Shown: positions 54,258 to 64,000 of the stretch, one piece after another
Layout: every line of letters starts with the position of its first letter
Numbering within the stretch: the first letter of the stretch is position 1
Source of the DNA: Burkholderia sp. SRS-46
GTDB lineage: Bacteria > Pseudomonadota > Gammaproteobacteria > Burkholderiales > Burkholderiaceae
DNA: 64,000 bases
NCBI RefSeq assembly: GCF_004343775.1
Contig: NZ_PTXL01000005.1
Coordinates: 496,001 to 560,000 of the forward strand
Direction of reading: 5' to 3'
Made by a program: the position numbers and the translations under genes
Notes under the pieces: generated by a model
What the model was told of the DNA's origin: nothing
Databases searched by the model: none
The model's input: only the letters and a program-made list of their open reading frames with translations

Positions 54258-54439
54258 GCGCCAATCCGAGGGCGGCCGCACGGGCCGCCTGCTACAAACC
54301 GGTACAAATCAGACAAATCGCGGATACATCAGACCTTTCAAATCGGCTACGCCGCCGTCATCGCATCGCGCCGGAGTGAACCCCACGGCGCGTGAGCGGG
54401 CGTGCGGCTTGTCCATTTTCGAAAGGAGGATGTCAAGCG

Positions 54440-55717
54440 ATGGCTTCAACACCGTTTTCCCCGATGCGGCGTCACCTGCTGGCCACGTCCGTGGCCGCGG
54501 GCGTCTCCGCGATGCTTCCCACCGCACTCCATGCCGCGACGGGCGGCGGCAGCATCCGCCCGTTCACCGCGCACATTCCCGACGACGCGCTCGCCGACCT
54601 GCGCCGCCGCATCGCCGCGACGCGCTGGCCGGGCACCGAAACCGTGGCCGACGAATCGCAGGGCGTGCGGCTCGCGCGCATGCAGGCGCTGCTTCGCTAC
54701 TGGGGCACCGACTACGATTGGCGCAAGGGCGAGGCGCGCCTGAACGGCTTCCCGATGTTCATCACCGAAATCGGCGGCCTCGACATTCATTTCATCCACG
54801 TGCGCTCGCGCCACGCGAATGCGATGCCGATGATCATGACGCACGGCTGGCCCGGCTCGATCTTCGAATTGCTGAAGGCGATCGGCCCGCTGACCGACCC
54901 GACCGCGCATGGCGCGAGCGCCGACGATGCGTTTCACGTCGTCGTGCCGTCGCTGCCGGGCTTCGGCTTCTCGGGCCGGCCGACGAAGACGGGCTGGGGC
55001 TCGGACCACATCGCGCGCGCATGGGGCGAGCTGATGGCGCGGCTCGGCTACACGCGCTTCGTGTCGCAGGGCGGCGACTGCGGCTCGGTGATCTCGCACC
55101 GGATGGCCATGCAGCGCGTGCAAGGGCTGGCCGGGATTCACGTCAACATGCCGGCCACGGTGCCGCCCGACATCGCGACGCTGCTCGCGACCGACGCACC
55201 CGCGCCGGCCGGGCTGTCGCCGAAGGAGAAGGCCGCGTACGAGAAGCTCGCGACCTTCTATCGCGACAACTGCGGCTACTCGGCGATGATGGTGACGCGC
55301 CCGCAGACGGTCGGCTACGCGCTCGCCGATTCGCCGGCAGGGCAGGCCGCGTGGATGTACGACAAGATCTCGCAGTGGACTTACAGCGGCGGCATTCCCG
55401 AGCGCTCGATTCCGCGCGACGAGATTCTCGACGACATCTCGCTGTACTGGCTGACGAACACCGCGACGTCCGCCGCGCAGATCTACTGGGAGGATCACTC
55501 GAACAACTTCAACGCGGTGGACATCAAGCTGCCGGCGGCGATCACCGTGTTTCCCGGCGAGATCTACCAGGCGCCGCGCAGCTGGGCCGAGCGTTGCTAT
55601 CACAACCTGATCTACTTCAACGAAGTCGGCAAGGGAGGGCATTTCGCGGCATGGGAGGAGCCCGAGCTGTTCGCGCAGGAGGTACGTGCCGGGTTCCGGT
55701 CGCTGCGCCGCGCGTAG
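54440..55717 (+). CDS. Exported epoxide hydrolase-family protein
   Basis: 425 residues. A twin-arginine-type leader (SPMRRHLLATSVAAGVSAMLP) precedes the EHN N-terminal domain (SIRPFTAHIPDDALADLRRRIAATRWP). The alpha/beta-hydrolase core has the oxyanion HGWPGS, nucleophile Asp213 in SQGGDCGSVISH and His401 in GKGGHFAAWEEP. It hydrolyses epoxides to diols in the family; the substrate is unknown. ATG at 54440 follows AGGAGG with a somewhat long spacer. It lies upstream of a second exported hydrolase and a cytochrome P460. Confidence 0.92.
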   Translation: MASTPFSPMRRHLLATSVAAGVSAMLPTALHAATGGGSIRPFTAHIPDDALADLRRRIAATRWPGTETVADESQGVRLARMQALLRYWGTDYDWRKGEARLNGFPMFITEIGGLDIHFIHVRSRHANAMPMIMTHGWPGSIFELLKAIGPLTDPTAHGASADDAFHVVVPSLPGFGFSGRPTKTGWGSDHIARAWGELMARLGYTRFVSQGGDCGSVISHRMAMQRVQGLAGIHVNMPATVPPDIATLLATDAPAPAGLSPKEKAAYEKLATFYRDNCGYSAMMVTRPQTVGYALADSPAGQAAWMYDKISQWTYSGGIPERSIPRDEILDDISLYWLTNTATSAAQIYWEDHSNNFNAVDIKLPAAITVFPGEIYQAPRSWAERCYHNLIYFNEVGKGGHFAAWEEPELFAQEVRAGFRSLRRA

Positions 55718-55946
55718 GCGTGGTTTGAAGGACGAACGGACGCGAGCTTGCGGAAACGCGGCTCGCGTTCGTCTTCGGGCGTTGTTTTCCGCAGGATTTT
55801 GAATCGCTGTGTGTCGTGTTCGAACGCAGATACGTTGAGATACAAAGCGTCCGCCGGCTTCGGATATAAATCCGGTGAAGCAAGCCCAGCGTGCCCGCCC
55901 AGTGCCGCGGGGCCATTCCTCAGCGATCGATAATGGAGAACGAGTC

Positions 55947-56984
55947 ATGCCTGAAACCGTGAACACCCGCCGCCGCCTGATCCTCGGCACGACGCTCGCG
56001 AGCCTCGCCGACCTGGGGCTCGGCACGCTCGCGCACGCGCAATCGGCGCCCGATGCGTCGCCGAAGCCGAGCGCGGCAGGCGGCGCGTCGTTCGACACGA
56101 TCCACCAGATCGACGCGGGCGTGCTCAACGTCGGGTATGCGGACGTGGGGCCCCGGAACGGCCCCGTCGTGTTCCTGCTGCACGGCTGGCCGTACGACAT
56201 TCACAGTTATGCGGAGGTCGCGCCGCTGCTCACGGCGGCGGGCTATCGCGTGATCGTGCCGTACCTGCGCGGCTACGGCTCGACGACGTTCCGCTCGGCC
56301 GACACGGTGCGCAACGGCCAGCAGGCCGTGACGGCCGTCGACATCATCGCGCTGATGGACGCGCTGAAGATCGATCGCGCGGTGTTCGGCGGCTACGACT
56401 GGGGCGCGCGCACCGCCGACATCATCGCGGCGCTGTGGCCGCAGCGCGTGAAGGCGCTGGTGTCGGTGAGCGGCTACCTGATCGGCAGCCAGGAGGCGAA
56501 CCGCAAGCCGCTGCCGCCGCAGGCGGAATTGCAGTGGTGGTATCAGTTCTACTTCACGACCGAGCGCGGCGCGCTCGGCTACGCGGCGAACCGCGATGCG
56601 TTCAACAAGCTGATCTGGCAGCTCGCGTCGCCGAAATGGCAGTTCTCCGACGAGATCTATGGGCGCTCGGCCGCGTCGTTCAAGAACCCCGATCACGTGG
56701 CTGTCGTGATCCACAACTATCGCTGGCGTCTCGGGCTCGCGAAGGGTGAAGCGCAATACGACGACATCGAGCGGCGCCTTGCCGCCGGCCCGGCGATTGC
56801 GGTGCCGACGATCACGATGGAAGGCGACGCGAACGGCGCGCCGCATCCGGAGCCGGCCGCGTACGCGAAGAAGTTCACCGGCAAATACCAGCACCGCACG
56901 ATCAGCGGCGGCATCGGGCACAACCTGCCGCAGGAGGCGCCGCAGGCGTTCGCCGAGGCGATCCTGCAAGTGGAGCGTCTGTGA
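55947..56984 (+). CDS. Exported alpha/beta hydrolase, epoxide hydrolase/haloalkane dehalogenase-like
   Basis: 345 residues with a twin-arginine-like leader (VNTRRRLILGTTLASLADLGLG). The core shows VFLLHGWPYD, nucleophile Asp151 in GGYDWGARTADI, and His325 in SGGIGHNLPQEAP. An Asp nucleophile indicates epoxide hydrolase or dehalogenase chemistry rather than an esterase. It starts at ATG 55947 after GGAGAACGAG and overlaps the cytochrome P460 start by one base (TGATG), so the two are translationally coupled. Confidence 0.9.
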   Translation: MPETVNTRRRLILGTTLASLADLGLGTLAHAQSAPDASPKPSAAGGASFDTIHQIDAGVLNVGYADVGPRNGPVVFLLHGWPYDIHSYAEVAPLLTAAGYRVIVPYLRGYGSTTFRSADTVRNGQQAVTAVDIIALMDALKIDRAVFGGYDWGARTADIIAALWPQRVKALVSVSGYLIGSQEANRKPLPPQAELQWWYQFYFTTERGALGYAANRDAFNKLIWQLASPKWQFSDEIYGRSAASFKNPDHVAVVIHNYRWRLGLAKGEAQYDDIERRLAAGPAIAVPTITMEGDANGAPHPEPAAYAKKFTGKYQHRTISGGIGHNLPQEAPQAFAEAILQVERL

Positions 56985-57520
56985 TGCGGGCGGGAATCTG
57001 TATCCTGCGTCGCGGCGCGAGCCGTGCGCTCGTTGCGGGCGCGCTGCTGGCCGGCGCACTTGCGGCGAGCGGCTCCGCCGCGATCGCGGAAGAGTCGAAG
57101 CCGGCTGCGTCGCCGATCTACGGCGTGACGATCCCGCCCGGCTACCGGAAGTGGGAAATGGTCGCGCCGGCCGAGGAAGCCGCGCCGCTCGACGAGTTGC
57201 GCGTGGTGCTCGGCAATCCGGTTGCGATTCGCGCGCTGGAGCAGGCGACGCTGCCGTTTCCGGACGGCACGATCCTCGTGAAGCTCGCGTACAAGCGCAA
57301 GCAATCCGACGAGTTCGCGCCGGCGACGGTGCCAGGGCAGGCGACGACCGTGCAGGTGATGGTGAAGGATTCGCGGCGCTATGCGGCGACGGGCGGGTGG
57401 GGTTTCGGGCGCTTTATCAACGGCGTGCCGGCTGATATCGGCCAGCATCAGACGTGCTTTGCGTGTCACCAGGCGCGGGTGAAGAACCACGATTTCGTGT
57501 TTACGCGGCTTGTGCCGTGA
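56984..57520 (+). CDS. Cytochrome P460-family protein
   Basis: 178-residue periplasmic c-type heme protein. A signal peptide (LVAGALLAGALAASGSAAIA) is followed by a P460 domain with VTIPPGYRKWEMVAP and WGFGRFINGVP. The heme attachment motif is CFACH (Cys158, Cys161, His162). Family members oxidise hydroxylamine or act as related heme enzymes. The start ATG shares its A with the upstream hydrolase stop. Coupling to exported hydrolases is unusual and suggests periplasmic oxidation linked to epoxide or halide chemistry. A terminator follows. Confidence 0.92.
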   Translation: MRAGICILRRGASRALVAGALLAGALAASGSAAIAEESKPAASPIYGVTIPPGYRKWEMVAPAEEAAPLDELRVVLGNPVAIRALEQATLPFPDGTILVKLAYKRKQSDEFAPATVPGQATTVQVMVKDSRRYAATGGWGFGRFINGVPADIGQHQTCFACHQARVKNHDFVFTRLVP

Positions 57521-57550
57521 TACCGACGTGACACGAAGGGCGAGCGAAAG

Positions 57551-57575
57551 GCGTGCCGCGTGCGGCACGCTTTTT
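57551..57575 (+). terminator. Rho-independent terminator after the cytochrome P460 gene
   Basis: GCGTGCCG-CGTG-CGGCACGC followed by TTTTT. It abuts the stop codon of the convergent SRPBCC gene and may serve both directions. Confidence 0.88.
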
Positions 57576-58087
57576 CAGGGTTCTTCGTGGATTTCCACGG
57601 ATGTCGCCTGCCGACCCCGAGCGGCCCATCGTATCAATCGCGCATGGCGATGACGAAACAAAAATTTCACCACCTGCATCGTGGCCTGCCGCCACCCAGG
57701 GATCCATGCTCCCGGCCGACGCAATTCGAACGTCAGTCGGTCATGCACTTCGCTTCCTCCGCTTACGTCGCGAATCGTCCGTTCGTGCACCCACGTACGC
57801 ATTCCAAGCATGCGCGACGTTTCCTTGAATCTGAAGCCCGGCCCCACTTCGGCCAGTGTCATGTCGTCGAAGTCCACCGGGAAGGCGCCGAGTGCGAGGA
57901 GCCAGCTTCGGCCGAGGTAATGCCCGGTCGGTAATTGATCGATCGTCTTGCCCCGCAATTCAGGCGGAATCGTCATCCGCAACCAGGGAAACAACTCGTC
58001 GTTGATCCCTTCCGGTGTCGTCACGCGATGCCACAACTCGGCGGCGCTTACCGGAAGCGTGGACTTTTGCTCAAAGGTCGATTTCAT
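57575..58087 (-). CDS. SRPBCC/START-like ligand-binding protein
   Basis: 170 residues with the opening STLPVSAAELWHRVTTPEGINDEL, typical of SRPBCC helix-grip folds (first strand and the AELWxxVT loop). Further strands are WLLALGAFPVDFDDMTLAEVGPGFRFKETS and SEVHDRLTFELRRPG. It has no signal peptide. Members bind hydrophobic ligands or act as cyclases or hydratases; no function is assigned. It converges on the cytochrome P460 gene. Confidence 0.8.
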   Translation of the reverse strand: MKSTFEQKSTLPVSAAELWHRVTTPEGINDELFPWLRMTIPPELRGKTIDQLPTGHYLGRSWLLALGAFPVDFDDMTLAEVGPGFRFKETSRMLGMRTWVHERTIRDVSGGSEVHDRLTFELRRPGAWIPGWRQATMQVVKFLFRHRHARLIRWAARGRQATSVEIHEEP

Positions 58088-58397
58088 GCGGATGTCGGTG
58101 CTCTCTGGATCCGTCGTGGTTCAAGATTCTCGCCCATTTTCAACGATTCACATGGCAATGCCCTGGGCCCGCATGGGGCCGAACCTCGACGGTCTGCCCC
58201 GCTTCAGCCCCACACGAGTTTGTATCCCACTGTATCTACACCCCTCCTGGAAAAACTGGCATGCGCCCGGCCCCTGTTCCGGAAACATGCGCGATACGTG
58301 GGCGGGTTCTACTGTCGACATGCAGAAAGCATTCGATAAACGACGTTGAATCGGATACCGAATGACCGACTGCTCACTTTCCTTCAGGAGAACGCTC
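58088..58397. other. Intergenic region without a recognisable gene
   Basis: 310 bp between divergent SRPBCC and DUF4148 genes. Short frames are present without motifs. CAGGAG at about 58385-58390 is the ribosome site of the downstream gene. Confidence 0.5.
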
Positions 58398-58733
58398 ATG
58401 AAAACCGCTCGAATCCTCGCCGTTGCCGTGCTCGCCGCCATCCCCGCCTTGTCCTTCGCCGATACCGGCCACGGCCTGACCCGCGCCGACGTGCGCGCCG
58501 AACTCGTCCGGCTGGAGCAGGCCGGCTACAACCCGGCGCGCAGCGAACCGCATTACCCGGACGACGTCGCCGCCGCGCTGCAGGTCGCGCGCTCCGACCA
58601 GAACGGCCCGTCGAAGTCCGAAGGCGACAACGTGGCCGACACGCCCGCGCCGGCCCAGCATCGCGACATGGTGCAGGCGCGCGCCGCCCACCACGACACG
58701 ATTCCGTCCGACGACCTCTATGCGCATTCGTGA
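58398..58733 (+). CDS. DUF4148 domain exported protein
   Basis: 111 residues. A signal peptide (RILAVAVLAAIPALSFA) is followed by the DUF4148 signature GLTRADVRAELVRLEQAGYNPAR. The rest is a low-complexity acidic/His tail. These small periplasmic proteins are abundant in Burkholderia and often stress-induced; the molecular function is unknown. ATG at 58398 follows CAGGAG. It precedes an exported hydrolase on the same strand by 90 bp. Confidence 0.9.
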   Translation: MKTARILAVAVLAAIPALSFADTGHGLTRADVRAELVRLEQAGYNPARSEPHYPDDVAAALQVARSDQNGPSKSEGDNVADTPAPAQHRDMVQARAAHHDTIPSDDLYAHS

Positions 58734-58823
58734 TTCGTTGCCGCCCGCGCTGCCCAACGGCGGCGCGGCGGCCATCGCGGCACTTCATGTGAACAACACG
58801 ACAGAACAGACAGGAGCATGACA

Positions 58824-59612
58824 ATGGTTCGTTCGATGCAACGGGTACTGATCTCCGCCGCCGTGGTCGGCGGCATGTTCGGTGCGGCGGCGGCCCACGC
58901 CGCCCCCAACGAAGACCTGAAAGGCACCAACGTCGTGCTCGTGCACGGCGCGTTCGCCGACGGGTCGAGCTGGAACCGCGTGATTCCGCTGCTCGAGGCG
59001 CGCGGCCTGCACGTCGTGTCCGTGCAGAACCCGCTGAGCTCGCTCGCCGACGACGCGGCCGCCACGAAGCGCGCGATCGACCAGCAGCAAGGGCCTGTCG
59101 TGCTGGTCGGCCACTCGTGGGCCGGCGTCGTGATCAGCGAGGCCGGCAACGACGACAAGGTGAAGTCGCTCGTCTACGTCGCGGCGTTCGCACCGGACAA
59201 CGGCCAGTCGATTGCCGACGTCACGCAGGGGCTGCCGCCGCCGGCGTGGGCGGGCGAACTGCGCAAGGACGCGGGCGGTTTCACGCGGCTGTCGGACCAG
59301 GCCATCGCGCAGGATTTCGCGCCCGACCTGCCGGCCGCGCAGCAGCGCATCGTCGCGGCGACGCAGGGGCCGTGGTATGGCGGGTGCATTTCGGAGAAGG
59401 TCACACAGGCCGCATGGCACGCGAAGCCGTCGACCTTCGTCGTCGCGACGCAGGACAAGATGATCGATCCGGCGCTGCAGGAGTCGATGGCGAAGCGGAT
59501 CGGCGCGACGCTCACGCGCGTGAACGGCAGCCATGTCGCGATGCTGAGCCAGCCGAAGGCCGTGGCCGACGCGATCATCGCGGCTGCAGCCCGCGCGAAG
59601 CAGGCGCAGTGA
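58824..59612 (+). CDS. Exported alpha/beta-hydrolase (esterase-like)
   Basis: 262 residues with a signal peptide (VLISAAVVGGMFGAAAAHA-AP). The alpha/beta fold shows VVLVHGAFADGSSWNRVIP (oxyanion loop), nucleophile Ser98 in VGHSWAGVVISE and a late His in VNGSHVAMLSQPK. It resembles HNL/MES-like or salicylate-ester esterases of the AB_hydrolase_6 group. ATG at 58824 is preferred because AGGAG lies 7 bp upstream; ATG at 58818 would be only 1 bp from it. The substrate is unknown. Confidence 0.9.
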   Translation: MVRSMQRVLISAAVVGGMFGAAAAHAAPNEDLKGTNVVLVHGAFADGSSWNRVIPLLEARGLHVVSVQNPLSSLADDAAATKRAIDQQQGPVVLVGHSWAGVVISEAGNDDKVKSLVYVAAFAPDNGQSIADVTQGLPPPAWAGELRKDAGGFTRLSDQAIAQDFAPDLPAAQQRIVAATQGPWYGGCISEKVTQAAWHAKPSTFVVATQDKMIDPALQESMAKRIGATLTRVNGSHVAMLSQPKAVADAIIAAAARAKQAQ

Positions 59613-60035
59613 TCGACGGTGGCGCTGCGGTGTGCCCGATCGGGCATGCGGCGGCGCTGCATGCATCACCGGAGTCGAGCCATGCGCTCGGCTTCCATCC
59701 CGAATCACGACGCGCCGACGTTCTTTCCTCTGCTCCCGCAGCCGGCCCCGATTCCACGGTACCTGACCGCCGCGCGACTCGTTGCATCCGCAACCCTTCC
59801 CGACTTCCGTGCAATCGTTTCCACGCCGCGCCGTCGTGCGACGGACTGCACCAATCCGTCCGATAGCGAACAAGCGCGATAGCAATTCATCCGGCGCTGA
59901 TTAGGAAATGAGTTTTTATTGGTTCTGCATCCCGACTCGCGCTCGCATAGTGGCGCTGACGGCTATAGACAGCATGCAAGCTGCAGCGGCCGCATTCCCG
60001 GTATTGATGATCGGATGAACCGACAAGGAAGCGTC
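59613..60035. other. Region upstream of the encapsulin-linked operon
   Basis: 423 bp with no convincing gene. It contains a perfect 14-bp palindrome TGCCCGATCGGGCA (59633-59646). The A/T-rich stretch at 59901-59930 (TTAGGAAATGAGTTTTTATT) is the likely promoter region for the rhodanese/cysE genes. The sequence CGGCTATAG at 59960-59968 recurs before the encapsulin gene. Confidence 0.55.
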
Positions 60036-60506
60036 ATGACGTTTGCATTGGAAGAACGAGCCGCCGCGCAGCAGGCGCTCGAAGCGGCCCGCGTGGCCGC
60101 GGCCGCGGACGGCACGCCGTACGCGGGCGGGGTGGCCCCCGCGATCGCGTGGGCGCTGTTCGCGTCCGGCGACGCGCGCTTGGTCGACGTGCGCACCGCG
60201 GAGGAGCGCAAGTTCGTCGGCCACGTGCCCGACACGCTGCATGTGCCGTGGGCGACCGGCACGAGCCTCACGCGCAACCCGCGCTTCGTGCGCGAGCTGG
60301 AAGCGAAGACCGGCAAGGATGCGCTGATCCTGCTGTTGTGCCGCAGCGGCAACCGCTCGGCACAGGCCGCCGAAGCGGCGACCAAGGCGGGCTTCACGCA
60401 AGTGTTCAACGTACTCGAAGGCTTCGAGGGCGACCTGGACGAACAGCAGCGCCGCGGCGGCCGCAACGGCTGGCGCTTCCACGGCTTGCCGTGGGCGCAG
60501 GACTGA
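60036..60506 (+). CDS. Rhodanese-family sulfurtransferase
   Basis: 156 residues, single rhodanese domain after a roughly 30-residue Ala-rich helix. The active-site loop is LLCRSGNRSAQAA with Cys102, which carries a persulfide during sulfur transfer; DVRTAEERKFVGHVPDTLHVPW is the conserved first half. ATG at 60036 follows AAGGA. It opens the operon with serine O-acetyltransferase, XRE regulator, family 2A encapsulin and cysteine desulfurase, where it probably accepts or delivers sulfane sulfur. Confidence 0.93.
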   Translation: MTFALEERAAAQQALEAARVAAAADGTPYAGGVAPAIAWALFASGDARLVDVRTAEERKFVGHVPDTLHVPWATGTSLTRNPRFVRELEAKTGKDALILLLCRSGNRSAQAAEAATKAGFTQVFNVLEGFEGDLDEQQRRGGRNGWRFHGLPWAQD

Positions 60507-60534
60507 AACACGGCCGATACGGGGAGAAGCGACA

Positions 60535-61494
60535 GTGGCCGCATTCGACATCGACGACATCGTTCAATCGCTGCACGCCGAGCGCCGTGCGTGGCGGGAA
60601 AAGCAGCGGCGCTCGCTGGAGCCCGGCGGCCGCGACCTGCCGGCGCGCGAGGCGCTCGCGCAGATCGTCGGCGCGCTGAAGGGCGTGCTGTTTCCGATGC
60701 GGCTCGGCCCGCCGGACTTGCGGCAGGAAAGCGAGAACTTCTACGTGGCCCACGCGCTCGACGCGGCGCTGAACGCACTGCTCGCGCAGGTGACGTTGGA
60801 GCTGCGCTACGCGGCGCGCCAGCGCAGCGCGGCGGCGCCGGCCGACGAGCCGGCATCGGCGGCCGTGCAGGCGTTCGCCGCGCGGCTGCCGGAGATCCGC
60901 CGGCTGCTCGACAGCGACGTGCTCGCGGCGTTCCACGGCGACCCGGCGGCCGGCAGCGTCGACGAGGTGCTGCTGTGCTACCCGGGCATCCTCGCGATGA
61001 TCCATCACCGGCTCGCGCACGAGCTGTACCGGCTCGGCCTGCCGCTGCTGGCGCGGATCATCGCCGAGCAGGCGCATGCGGAAACCGGCATCGACATCCA
61101 TCCGGGCGCGCGCATCGGCGGCGGCTTCTTCATCGATCACGGCACGGGCGTCGTGATCGGCGAGACCGCGATCATCGGCGAGCGCGTGCGCGTCTATCAG
61201 GCGGTGACGCTCGGCGCGAAGCGCTTCCCGCGCGACGCGGCCGGCCATCTGGAGAAAGGCCTCGCGCGCCATCCGATCGTCGAGGACGACGTCGTGATCT
61301 ACGCGGGCGCGACGATCCTCGGCCGCGTGACGATCGGGCGCGGCGCGGTGATCGGCGGCAACGTGTGGCTCACGCAGGACGTGCCGCCCGGCGCGAACGT
61401 CACGCAGGCCGTGCTGCGCAGCGAGGCGCTGCACGCCTCGAATGCGCCGCGCGCGCCGGCCGAGCGGGTTCCCGTTGAACAGGCGGCATCATGA
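60535..61494 (+). CDS. cysE: Serine O-acetyltransferase
   Basis: Makes O-acetylserine, the carbon skeleton for cysteine. 319 residues: an N-terminal all-helical region, then a left-handed beta-helix of hexapeptide repeats (IDIHPGARIGGGFFIDHGTGVVIGETAIIGERVRVYQAVTLGAK). Catalytic-type histidines lie in IHPGARIG and IDHGTGVV. It starts at GTG 60535 after GGGGAGAAGC, 28 bp from the rhodanese stop, and overlaps the XRE start by ATGA. Its place beside a desulfurase-loaded encapsulin suggests local cysteine supply. Confidence 0.94.
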   Translation: MAAFDIDDIVQSLHAERRAWREKQRRSLEPGGRDLPAREALAQIVGALKGVLFPMRLGPPDLRQESENFYVAHALDAALNALLAQVTLELRYAARQRSAAAPADEPASAAVQAFAARLPEIRRLLDSDVLAAFHGDPAAGSVDEVLLCYPGILAMIHHRLAHELYRLGLPLLARIIAEQAHAETGIDIHPGARIGGGFFIDHGTGVVIGETAIIGERVRVYQAVTLGAKRFPRDAAGHLEKGLARHPIVEDDVVIYAGATILGRVTIGRGAVIGGNVWLTQDVPPGANVTQAVLRSEALHASNAPRAPAERVPVEQAAS

Positions 61495-61721
61495 GCGACC
61501 TGATCCATCACTTCGGCGCGACCGTGCGCCGGATGCGCGAGGCCCGCACGTGGTCGCAGGAGCAGCTCGCGGAGCATGCGGGGCTGAACCGTTCGTACGT
61601 CGGCGAGATCGAGCGCGGCGAGGCGATCGCGTCGATCGTCACCGCCGACAAGATCGCGCGGGCCTTCGACGTGTCGATCGCGACTTTGCTCCCCGGCGCG
61701 GCCGACGCGTTCGCCGCCTGA
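61491..61721 (+). CDS. Small XRE-family HTH regulator
   Basis: 76 residues, almost entirely one Cro/C1-type HTH: FGATVRRMREARTWSQEQLAEHAGLNRSYVGEIERGEAI, with the recognition helix around RSYVGEIE. It has no separate ligand domain. It overlaps cysE by ATGA and lies 139 bp before the encapsulin gene, with an 8-bp inverted repeat overlapping the putative encapsulin promoter. It probably represses the shell and desulfurase genes and perhaps its own operon. Confidence 0.92.
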   Translation: MSDLIHHFGATVRRMREARTWSQEQLAEHAGLNRSYVGEIERGEAIASIVTADKIARAFDVSIATLLPGAADAFAA

Positions 61722-61761
61722 CGCGGCACGCGGGCCCGCTTCCCGAATCGATTGCGCGGCA

Positions 61762-61788
61762 TGCCGGCTATAGCATGTTGAGCCGGCA
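61762..61788. promoter_or_regulatory. Inverted repeat overlapping the encapsulin promoter
   Basis: TGCCGGCT (61762-61769), 11-bp spacer, AGCCGGCA (61781-61788): perfect arms. The right arm covers the putative -35 element. Candidate operator for the XRE protein encoded 40 bp upstream; a transcript hairpin is the alternative. Confidence 0.6.
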
Positions 61789-61807
61789 GGTGCGTGCTTC
61801 CGATAAT
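61778..61807 (+). promoter_or_regulatory. Sigma70-like promoter of the encapsulin gene
   Basis: TTGAGC (61778-61783) and GATAAT (61802-61807), 18-bp spacer, about 53 bp upstream of the encapsulin ATG. It would allow shell and cargo to be expressed separately from the rhodanese/cysE genes. Confidence 0.5.
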
Positions 61808-61860
61808 CCCCCAGCGTCATAAGCAATCCCGTTTTTCATCTTTAGAACCCGGAGCCACAC

Positions 61861-62793
61861 ATGTCGACCGTAGTAAGCGGCTCGGCTGCGCTGAGCGATC
61901 ACGCCGCCCGCCAACTCGCGAACGCCACCAAGACCGTTCCCCAGCTGTCCACGATCACGCCGCGCTGGCTGACCCACCTGCTGCAATGGGTGCCGGTCGA
62001 GGCCGGCATCTACCGCCTGAACCAGGTGAAGAACCCGGAGGCGGTGCGCGCCGCGTGCACGCAGCTGGAGGACGAGCGCATCCTGCCGCGCACCTTCGTG
62101 CCGTACGAGGAGCAGCCGCGCGAGTATTTCCTGAACGCGGTGAGCACCGTGCTCGACGTGCATACGCGGATCTCCGATCTCTACAGCAGCCCGCACGACC
62201 AGATCAAGGAACAGCTGCGCCTGACGATCGAGACGATCAAGGAGCTGCAGGAAAGCCAGCTGATCAACAACCCGGACTACGGCCTGCTCGCGAACGTGAC
62301 CGACGAGCAGCGCGTGTTCCCGCTGACGGGCGCGCCGACGCCGGACGATCTCGACGAGCTGCTGACCAAGGTGTGGAAGGAGCCGGCGTTCTTCCTCACG
62401 CACCCGCTCGCGATCGCCGCGTTCGGCCGCGAATGCACGCGGCGCGGCGTGCCGCCGCCGACGGTCAGCCTGTTCGGCTCGCAGTTCCTCACGTGGCGCG
62501 GCATTCCGCTGATCCCGTCGGACAAGGTGCCGGTCGCGGACGGCAAGACCAAGATCCTGCTGCTGCGCGTCGGCGACAAGCGGCAGGGCGTGGTCGGCCT
62601 CTACCAGCCGGGCGTCGCGGGCGAGCAGGGGCCGGGGCTGTCGGTGCGTTTCATGGGGATCAACAACCAGGCGATCGCGTCGTACCTGATCTCGCTGTAC
62701 TGCTCGCTCGCGGTCCACTCGCCGGATGCGCTGGCTGTCCTCGAAGACGTCGAAATCGGCAAGTACCATGACTATCCCGACACCTACCGTTAA
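61861..62793 (+). CDS. srpI: Family 2A encapsulin shell protein (SrpI-like)
   Basis: Self-assembling nanocompartment shell subunit with the HK97 capsid fold. The 310 residues match family 2A. The N-terminal stretch ARQLANATKTVPQLSTITPRWLTHLLQWVPVEAG is the hallmark of SrpI-type shells; FLTHPLAIAAFGRECTRRG lies in the P-domain and RFMGINNQAIASYLISLYCSLAVHS near the A-domain. Relatives package a cysteine desulfurase through its disordered N-terminus, and here that gene follows with a 26-bp overlap. ATG at 61861 lies after a CGGAGCC site. Confidence 0.93.
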   Translation: MSTVVSGSAALSDHAARQLANATKTVPQLSTITPRWLTHLLQWVPVEAGIYRLNQVKNPEAVRAACTQLEDERILPRTFVPYEEQPREYFLNAVSTVLDVHTRISDLYSSPHDQIKEQLRLTIETIKELQESQLINNPDYGLLANVTDEQRVFPLTGAPTPDDLDELLTKVWKEPAFFLTHPLAIAAFGRECTRRGVPPPTVSLFGSQFLTWRGIPLIPSDKVPVADGKTKILLLRVGDKRQGVVGLYQPGVAGEQGPGLSVRFMGINNQAIASYLISLYCSLAVHSPDALAVLEDVEIGKYHDYPDTYR

Positions 62794-64000
62794 TCCCGGC
62801 CGGCCGGCGGGCGAGCTGCCCGGCGCCGGCACGCTGCCGCATGCGCCGCTGCCGGCGGGCCTGCCCGACCCGGCGACGCTTGCGCGGCTCGCGTCCGAGT
62901 TCTTCTCGACGCCGCCGGGGCAGGCCACTGCGCCCGGCGTGTCGGCGGGCAGCGGCGCGGTGGGGGGCGTGCCGTCGGCATTGCCGGCGGCCGCGCCGAT
63001 CCTCGCGTCGGTGAGCAACCCCGCGCCGGCCGGCTCGCCGCTCGCGGGGCCGGGCGGCACCGGCACCGGCGTGCCGGGCCTCGCGCCGCCGCAGGGCAAG
63101 GTGGCGGGCGCGAACCTCGCGCCGTCCGCGCCGACTCATGTGCTGTCGCTCGGCAACCGCGCACCGGCCCTCGCGCCGCATGCGGTCGCGCAGAACGGCC
63201 TGCCCGACAGCGTCGTGTCGATCGCGCCGGCGTTCGAGCCGCGCGTCGGTGGCGCGGCGCTCGGCGTGCCGCAGGCGGGGGCCGCGGTGAACGACGCGGC
63301 ACCCGTTCAGCCTGCCGCCGCCGCTTCGCCGTATTACTTCACCGACGGCGCATTGCAAGGCTGGCAGGCGACGCCGCAGGATATCGTCGTGCCGACGCAC
63401 GGCGTGGCGTCGCCTGAGGCATTCGGGCTGCCCGGCAACGACGTGCTGCGCGAACTGCTCGCGCTGAACCGCCATGCGCCGGCGCAGTCCGCATCGCGCG
63501 ACGCGACGCCGCGCTATTTCGTCGACGATGCGCGGGCCGCCGAGCCGCATGCGCTCGCGGGCGGCGCGCATCCGCCGTTCGACGTGAACGCGATCCGCCG
63601 CGACTTCCCGATCCTGCAGGAGCGCGTGAACGGCAAGCAACTGATCTGGTTCGACAACGCGGCGACGACGCACAAGCCGCAGGCGGTGATCGACCGGCTC
63701 GCGTATTTCTACGCGCACGAGAACTCGAACATCCACCGCGCCGCGCATGCGCTCGCGGGCCGCGCGACCGATGCGTACGAGCATGCGCGCGACACGGTGC
63801 GGCGCTTTATCGGCGCCGCGTCGCCGGACGAGATCGTGTTCGTGCGCGGCACGACCGAGGCGATCAACCTGATCGCGAAGACGTGGGGCGTGCAGCACGT
63901 CGGCGAGGGTGACGAGATCGTCGTGTCGCATCTCGAGCATCACGCGAACATCGTGCCGTGGCAGCAGCTTGCCGCACAGAAGGGCGCGACGCTGCGCGTG
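62768..64000 (+). CDS. Encapsulin-cargo cysteine desulfurase (SufS-like), C-terminus beyond the window
   Basis: PLP enzyme releasing sulfur from cysteine as an enzyme persulfide; 411 residues are visible. Residues 1-270 are a Pro/Ala/Gly-rich, probably disordered extension with short conserved islands: LPDPATLARLASEFFS (32-47), YYFTDG (189-194) and RYFVDD (249-254). The SufS/CsdA-like catalytic domain starts at about 271 (FDVNAIRRDFPILQERVNG) and includes WFDNAATTHKP, NSNIHRAAHALA, FVRGTTEAINL and HLEHHANIVPWQ. The PLP lysine and catalytic cysteine lie outside the window. ATG at 62768 overlaps the shell gene, which couples shell and cargo synthesis. Confidence 0.93.
   Translation, partial: MTIPTPTVNPGRPAGELPGAGTLPHAPLPAGLPDPATLARLASEFFSTPPGQATAPGVSAGSGAVGGVPSALPAAAPILASVSNPAPAGSPLAGPGGTGTGVPGLAPPQGKVAGANLAPSAPTHVLSLGNRAPALAPHAVAQNGLPDSVVSIAPAFEPRVGGAALGVPQAGAAVNDAAPVQPAAAASPYYFTDGALQGWQATPQDIVVPTHGVASPEAFGLPGNDVLRELLALNRHAPAQSASRDATPRYFVDDARAAEPHALAGGAHPPFDVNAIRRDFPILQERVNGKQLIWFDNAATTHKPQAVIDRLAYFYAHENSNIHRAAHALAGRATDAYEHARDTVRRFIGAASPDEIVFVRGTTEAINLIAKTWGVQHVGEGDEIVVSHLEHHANIVPWQQLAAQKGATLRV

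Follow-up and report, generated by a model that had tools for sequence, protein, structure and literature searches.

The end of a 64,000-nucleotide (nt) stretch of Burkholderia sp. SRS-46 DNA (contig NZ_PTXL01000005.1, positions 496,001 to 560,000; hereafter the window, numbered from its first letter) carries five genes on the + strand, encoding a rhodanese, a serine O-acetyltransferase (SAT), an XRE-type regulator, an encapsulin shell and a cysteine desulfurase. Curated family models, solved relatives and two loading motifs support the view that this cluster encodes a family 2A encapsulin that would package the SufS-like desulfurase. We further propose that the regulator, which resembles the controller proteins of restriction-modification systems, probably acts as a repressor at its own upstream promoter and drives, or at a minimum gates, a second one that precedes the shell and cargo genes. 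The coding features are as follows (aa, amino acids).

60036-60506, + strand: rhodanese gene, 156 aa (PF00581, 52 bits against a cut-off of 22.2)
60535-61494, + strand: SAT gene, 319 aa, GTG start
61491-61721, + strand: XRE, controller-like regulator gene, 76 aa (HTH_3)
61861-62793, + strand: family 2A encapsulin shell gene, 310 aa
62768-64000, + strand: 5′ part of the cargo cysteine desulfurase gene, with an N-terminal extension of about 265 aa followed by a SufS-like domain
62879-62908, + strand: cargo loading motif 1, LARLASEFFS
63323-63349, + strand: cargo loading motif 2, ASPYYFTDG

An earlier, sequence-only reading had named these five genes, and both the open reading frames and the family models confirm them. 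The spacing that it gave is exact, with a 28-bp gap between rhodanese and SAT, an ATGA overlap between SAT and XRE and a 26-bp overlap between shell and cargo. Completed from the contig, the cargo gene runs past the end of the window to 64795 and encodes 675 aa. Because the shell model is matched in 73 of 299 genomes of the same taxonomic family, and in 32 of 41 within the genus (own genome included), the arrangement is conserved rather than due to chance. The nearest named shell, that of Burkholderia stagnalis LMG 28156, is identical, and across 4972 aligned bases the operon shares 94.8% DNA identity with the record of that strain, which places the window in B. stagnalis or a near relative. 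Across the contig stretch covering the cluster (L006, 300-6500), Rfam gave no match at its gathering threshold.

The shell scores 525.4 bits against the family 2A model NF041162 (cut-off 380) and also passes the 2B model, at a lower score (410.8 bits against 400). Its sole Pfam match is the SrpI-like family PF19307 (residues 60-300, 334.2 bits) and, unlike 2B shells, it has no cyclic-nucleotide-binding domain. The best match in the PDB is 8t6r, listed there as Major membrane protein I (E = 2e-167, 303 residues aligned), and homology to 6x8m (SrpI) extends across 297 residues (E = 2.4e-144). An HK97 fold is very likely, and this assignment rests on homology to solved shells because a structure prediction from 15 close relatives reached a predicted local distance difference test score of 32 and gave no usable model.

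The cargo scores 957.3 bits against the family 2A cargo model NF041166 (cut-off 800). Solved SufS-like relatives align to it from residue 267 onward. The genome matches the cargo at five places, among which the cargo gene alone covers the N-terminal part. Its sequence contains both SGHKIYGP and GHHCAQP, which we take to be the surroundings of the SufS pyridoxal phosphate lysine and catalytic cysteine. The two loading motifs correspond to LARLANEFFS and AASPYYFLDG, which PMC8049743 gives as the SrpI cargo loading motifs. Among 140 cargo relatives, five of them too short to count, regular expressions matched motif 1 in 76 of 135 and motif 2 in 85 of 135, so the motifs vary or the patterns are too strict. 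Together, the two curated models, the solved relatives and the motifs uphold, at the level of sequence, the proposal of the sequence-only reading that a family 2A shell packages the desulfurase.

The SAT falls below the TIGR01172 cut-off (170.5 against 210.65 bits) and above that of the EpsC-type model NF041874 (161.5 against 150 bits); the genome holds one stronger relative (242.9 bits) and one that is near-equal (171.4 against 172.1 bits). In PMC8346489, a survey of 1281 family 2A desulfurase operons, SAT and rhodanese are the most enriched accessories, giving these operons the same kinds of gene as the Burkholderia cluster, and B. cepacia and B. pseudomallei are named among the carriers. 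This makes the compartment one more member of an established kind, and less novel than the sequence-only reading had rated it because the operon type is already in print. By analogy, the sulfur-storage or cysteine-supply role proposed in that reading is plausible. Reportedly, a family 2A compartment stores elemental sulfur.

The 139-bp gap between the XRE and shell genes (61722-61860), which the sequence-only reading did not mention, is the most informative stretch of the cluster. A consensus promoter scan of 59650-62000 returned a single promoter-like site (shuffles averaged 0.2), which lies in this gap and which we denote the internal promoter; the scan did not find the CATAGT −10 of the rhodanese–SAT–XRE promoter. 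Directly before the −35 of the internal promoter stands a short box, nearly alike to another about 1.7 kb away that overlaps the inferred start of the rhodanese–SAT–XRE promoter. We denote these box 2 and box 1, respectively.

59904-59925, + strand: conserved A/T-rich block, possible activator site, located some 20 bp upstream of the first −10
59946-59951, + strand: inferred −10, CATAGT, of the rhodanese–SAT–XRE promoter, weak, at a constant distance from the A/T-rich block
59957-59968, + strand: box 1, TGACGGCTATAG, before rhodanese, likely XRE site for repression, with its TATA centred at about +8 relative to the inferred start
61762-61773, + strand: box 2, TGCCGGCTATAG, likely XRE site, with its TATA centred at about −43.5 relative to the inferred start
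61778-61807, + strand: internal promoter of shell and cargo, −35 TTGAGC, 18 nt, −10 GATAAT

The box takes the form of a TATA core with TGAYGGC-like halves on both flanks. The pattern TGNYGGCTATAG occurs three times in 8,587,419 bases, two of the three being box 1 and box 2, against nine occurrences of the reversed control; the dyad pattern at two mismatches is unspecific (183 places in the genome, control 46). To follow these elements across relatives, we used a family set comprising 58 of the 73 positive genomes, taken as 60 regions (three from genome G112), together with an order/phylum set of 41 loci (L108-L155 minus L143-L145, whose genomes were already included, and the secondary fragments L152-L155) and a named set of 80 loci. 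Species overlap is possible between the named and order sets and does occur between the named and family sets. TTGA or TCGA stands three bases behind the ATAGC end of the box at 50 of the 51 family loci with XRE (the exception is L075), and all 50 have a −10 with a 5/6 match at 17 or 18 nt (null 0.01). Outside Burkholderia-like genera, 34 of the 35 named loci with XRE have the box form (L260 does not), and the −10 matches at three or more positions in 33 and at four or more in nine (null 0.15 and 0.07).

We predict, with considerable confidence, that XRE binds both boxes. At box 1, binding should repress the rhodanese–SAT–XRE promoter because the box overlaps its start, and we hold repression there to be probable. 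Lambda CI and controller proteins activate from a position of about −43. The TATA of box 2, which directly adjoins the −35, is likewise centred at about −43, so XRE most likely activates the shell–cargo promoter, and we lean towards activation rather than repression at this site. An arrangement that we think unlikely, yet the most credible of the alternatives, is that XRE represses both promoters until some signal relieves the repression and the entire cluster is switched on. In its favour, a start is overlapped by box 1 and a −35 is touched by box 2, where bound XRE could block polymerase; against it, a TATA centre near −43 suits activation, and the 76-aa protein, which matches only HTH families, has no separate sensor domain. 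We give almost no credence to the idea that the box is a core promoter element of an alternative sigma factor and no operator at all; its core is TATAG-like and close to promoters, but its placement differs between the two promoters (about +8 and about −43), and a good sigma-70-type promoter lies downstream of box 2.

Most of 21 same-genus regions carry the A/T-rich block in near-identical form (it has diverged in L050 and L057), and it is recognisable in other lineages with XRE and also in lineages without it, which have TAGAGT at the place corresponding to the CATAGT −10. As a general sulfur-regulon site the block was rejected, its TTTTATTSGTT form having three genomic occurrences and the 21-mer, even when up to three mismatches are allowed, a single one; a CysB-type role would be a guess.

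The regulator is a small, all-helical helix-turn-helix protein with little beyond that domain, and is closest to restriction-modification controller proteins. In 399 Burkholderiales genomes, its profile gave 14 matches of at least 100 bits, all 14 adjoining a shell. The next-best match (76.7 bits) is located away from any shell, and a weaker one in genome G527 (71.1 bits) adjoins a shell and is the degraded-looking XRE of L123. Because all 14 of the strongest matches adjoin shells, the subfamily appears to be dedicated to encapsulins, at least in this Burkholderiales sample. Within the family set, the shell adjoins XRE in all 51 regions that have it, and SAT precedes XRE in 50 (it is missing in L087). 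A second degraded-looking XRE gene occurs in L260, where the frame aligns only from residue 20 and lacks an ATG or GTG start; no box was found there either. In several genera (L203, L205, L206, L208 and others) the XRE frame extends into box 2, producing a C-terminal ..AIAC tail.

The XRE gene and the boxes are coupled across lineages. Within the family set of 60 regions, 49 of 51 loci with XRE have the shell-side box against 1 of 9 without, and the corresponding counts for the rhodanese-side box are 47 of 50 against 0 of 6. A shell-side matrix trained on the family set carries over to the order/phylum set, where all 12 loci with XRE score at least 9.6 (11 of them at least 19.6) and the 29 without score at most −3.7, although the 9.6 of L132 lies under the highest shuffle at any locus, 10.5. 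The exact box core is present in 7 of these 12 loci outside the family; the other five have CGATAG or CCATAG, variants that were spotted by eye first and matrix-scored afterwards. In the named set, 50 of 51 loci with XRE score at least 22 (the exception is L260), and the 29 loci without a detected XRE, two of which have less than 250 nt of upstream sequence, reach a maximum of 9.9 (L259) and otherwise at most −2.7. Of 121 loci, L110, L225 and L257, with less than 600 nt upstream, were counted as lacking XRE in this scoring and excluded from the tree. On that tree of 127 shells, built by a quick method, XRE and the shell-side box agree in 125 shells, with 22 changes each, and 11 supported independent contrasts show the two changing in step (sign test, median p = 0.00098).

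Two loci without XRE keep the shell-side box, weakly in the second, and are perhaps relics after loss of upstream genes: L094, the single such locus in the family set, whose 4.4 kb of upstream sequence shows none of rhodanese, SAT and XRE, and L259 (Rubrivivax benzoatilyticus), where SAT and rhodanese were not found at the locus. Genome G112 has three family 2A shell loci (L073, L074 and L075), all with XRE and the shell-side box; rhodanese was not found at L075.

These data bear on whether the regulator belongs to the system at all. It is improbable, in our judgement, that the cluster is an ordinary published family 2A operon with a single upstream promoter and XRE as an incidental passenger. 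The operon type, its accessories and Burkholderia carriers are indeed already in print (PMC8346489), and 29 of the 80 named loci show no XRE; however, the strongest XRE profile matches without exception adjoin shells, box and gene change jointly in the supported contrasts, and the internal promoter is conserved. Still less probable is that the shell-side box is the mere downstream end of an XRE cassette gained and lost as one piece, and not a target of XRE. Box 2 does lie directly after the XRE gene, overlapping its end in several genera, but the same box recurs before rhodanese, about 1.7 kb off, and there too it tracks XRE (47 of 50 against 0 of 6).

Several observations limit the case for a controller acting at both boxes. 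Since box 2 adjoins the XRE gene, linkage may contribute to the coupling. The family-trained box 1 matrix transfers poorly, with 20 of 50 named loci with XRE scoring at least 10 and 17 of 50 above the highest shuffle (14.7), against a maximum of 1.4 at 25 loci without XRE, and many loci with XRE outside Burkholderia-like genera show no clear box 1. There, box 1 sometimes resembles a fuller dyad, TGRYGGC-NATN-GCCRYCA. Across the 75 named loci with a usable rhodanese, a dyad score of at least 13/16 is reached by 22 of 50 with XRE and 1 of 25 without (chance 0.009 per region), by a model drawn post hoc, once the box 1 matrix result was known. The locus without XRE that passes is L213, a Rhizobacter; another Rhizobacter, L254, has XRE.

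Taken with these points, a controller-like XRE acting on two promoters remains the reading we prefer. The shell would take up the SufS-like desulfurase through the N-terminal domain of the desulfurase; by inference from the published family, rhodanese would probably accept the released sulfur and SAT would feed cysteine synthesis. XRE at box 1 would provide negative feedback on the rhodanese–SAT–XRE promoter and would most likely turn on shell and cargo once the enzymes and XRE itself are made. More tentatively, and at slightly less than even chances, the recruited controller may serve as a timing switch that shuts off the promoter of rhodanese, SAT and itself and opens that of shell and cargo, with the enzymes made ahead of the compartment. 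The sequence-only reading had called the cluster regulated, and the two XRE-linked boxes and the internal promoter, as predicted sites, take that suggestion further than it went.

Among known systems, the closest in its compartment is SrpI-CyD of Synechococcus elongatus PCC 7942 (PMC8049743; 6x8m), which is alike in shell homology, SufS-like cargo, long N-terminal extension and both motifs; the Burkholderia cluster adds rhodanese, SAT, XRE and a second promoter with a box. The S. elongatus encapsulin is induced upon sulfur starvation, and its knockouts show no growth phenotype (PMC8049743). Term searches of the main texts gave no hit in PMC8049743 for rhodanese, transcriptional regulator or helix-turn-helix, and none in PMC8346489 for XRE, HTH or promoter. 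The controller proteins C.AhdI, C.BclI and C.Esp1396I differ in that XRE has no restriction or methyltransferase gene beside it and its boxes belong to two distinct promoters within an encapsulin cluster; PMC4041747 describes C.Esp1396I dimers centred on TATA and an OL site that recruits sigma. In an open-access library we found no description of XRE with a desulfurase encapsulin; subscription papers were mostly outside the search, so one may exist there. What looks new is thus the XRE regulator of a family 2A encapsulin.

The surroundings of the cluster were named by eye. Downstream of the cargo, on the + strand at about 65423-74413 (L006:6424-15414), lies a gene for a 2996-aa protein that resembles secreted proteins of the filamentous-haemagglutinin/CdiA type. 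The upstream run (54392-59612) contains hydrolase-like genes at 54392-55717, 55875-56984 and 58818-59612 and, at 56981-57520, a short protein with a CFACHQ motif.

The trigger and purpose of family 2A encapsulins are only partly understood. If a dedicated regulator acts through two short sites, it offers a direct handle, making the shell promoter and its trigger testable by reporters without guessing a growth condition. If the proposed mechanism is true, the cluster would also exemplify a controller-like switch operating outside restriction-modification.

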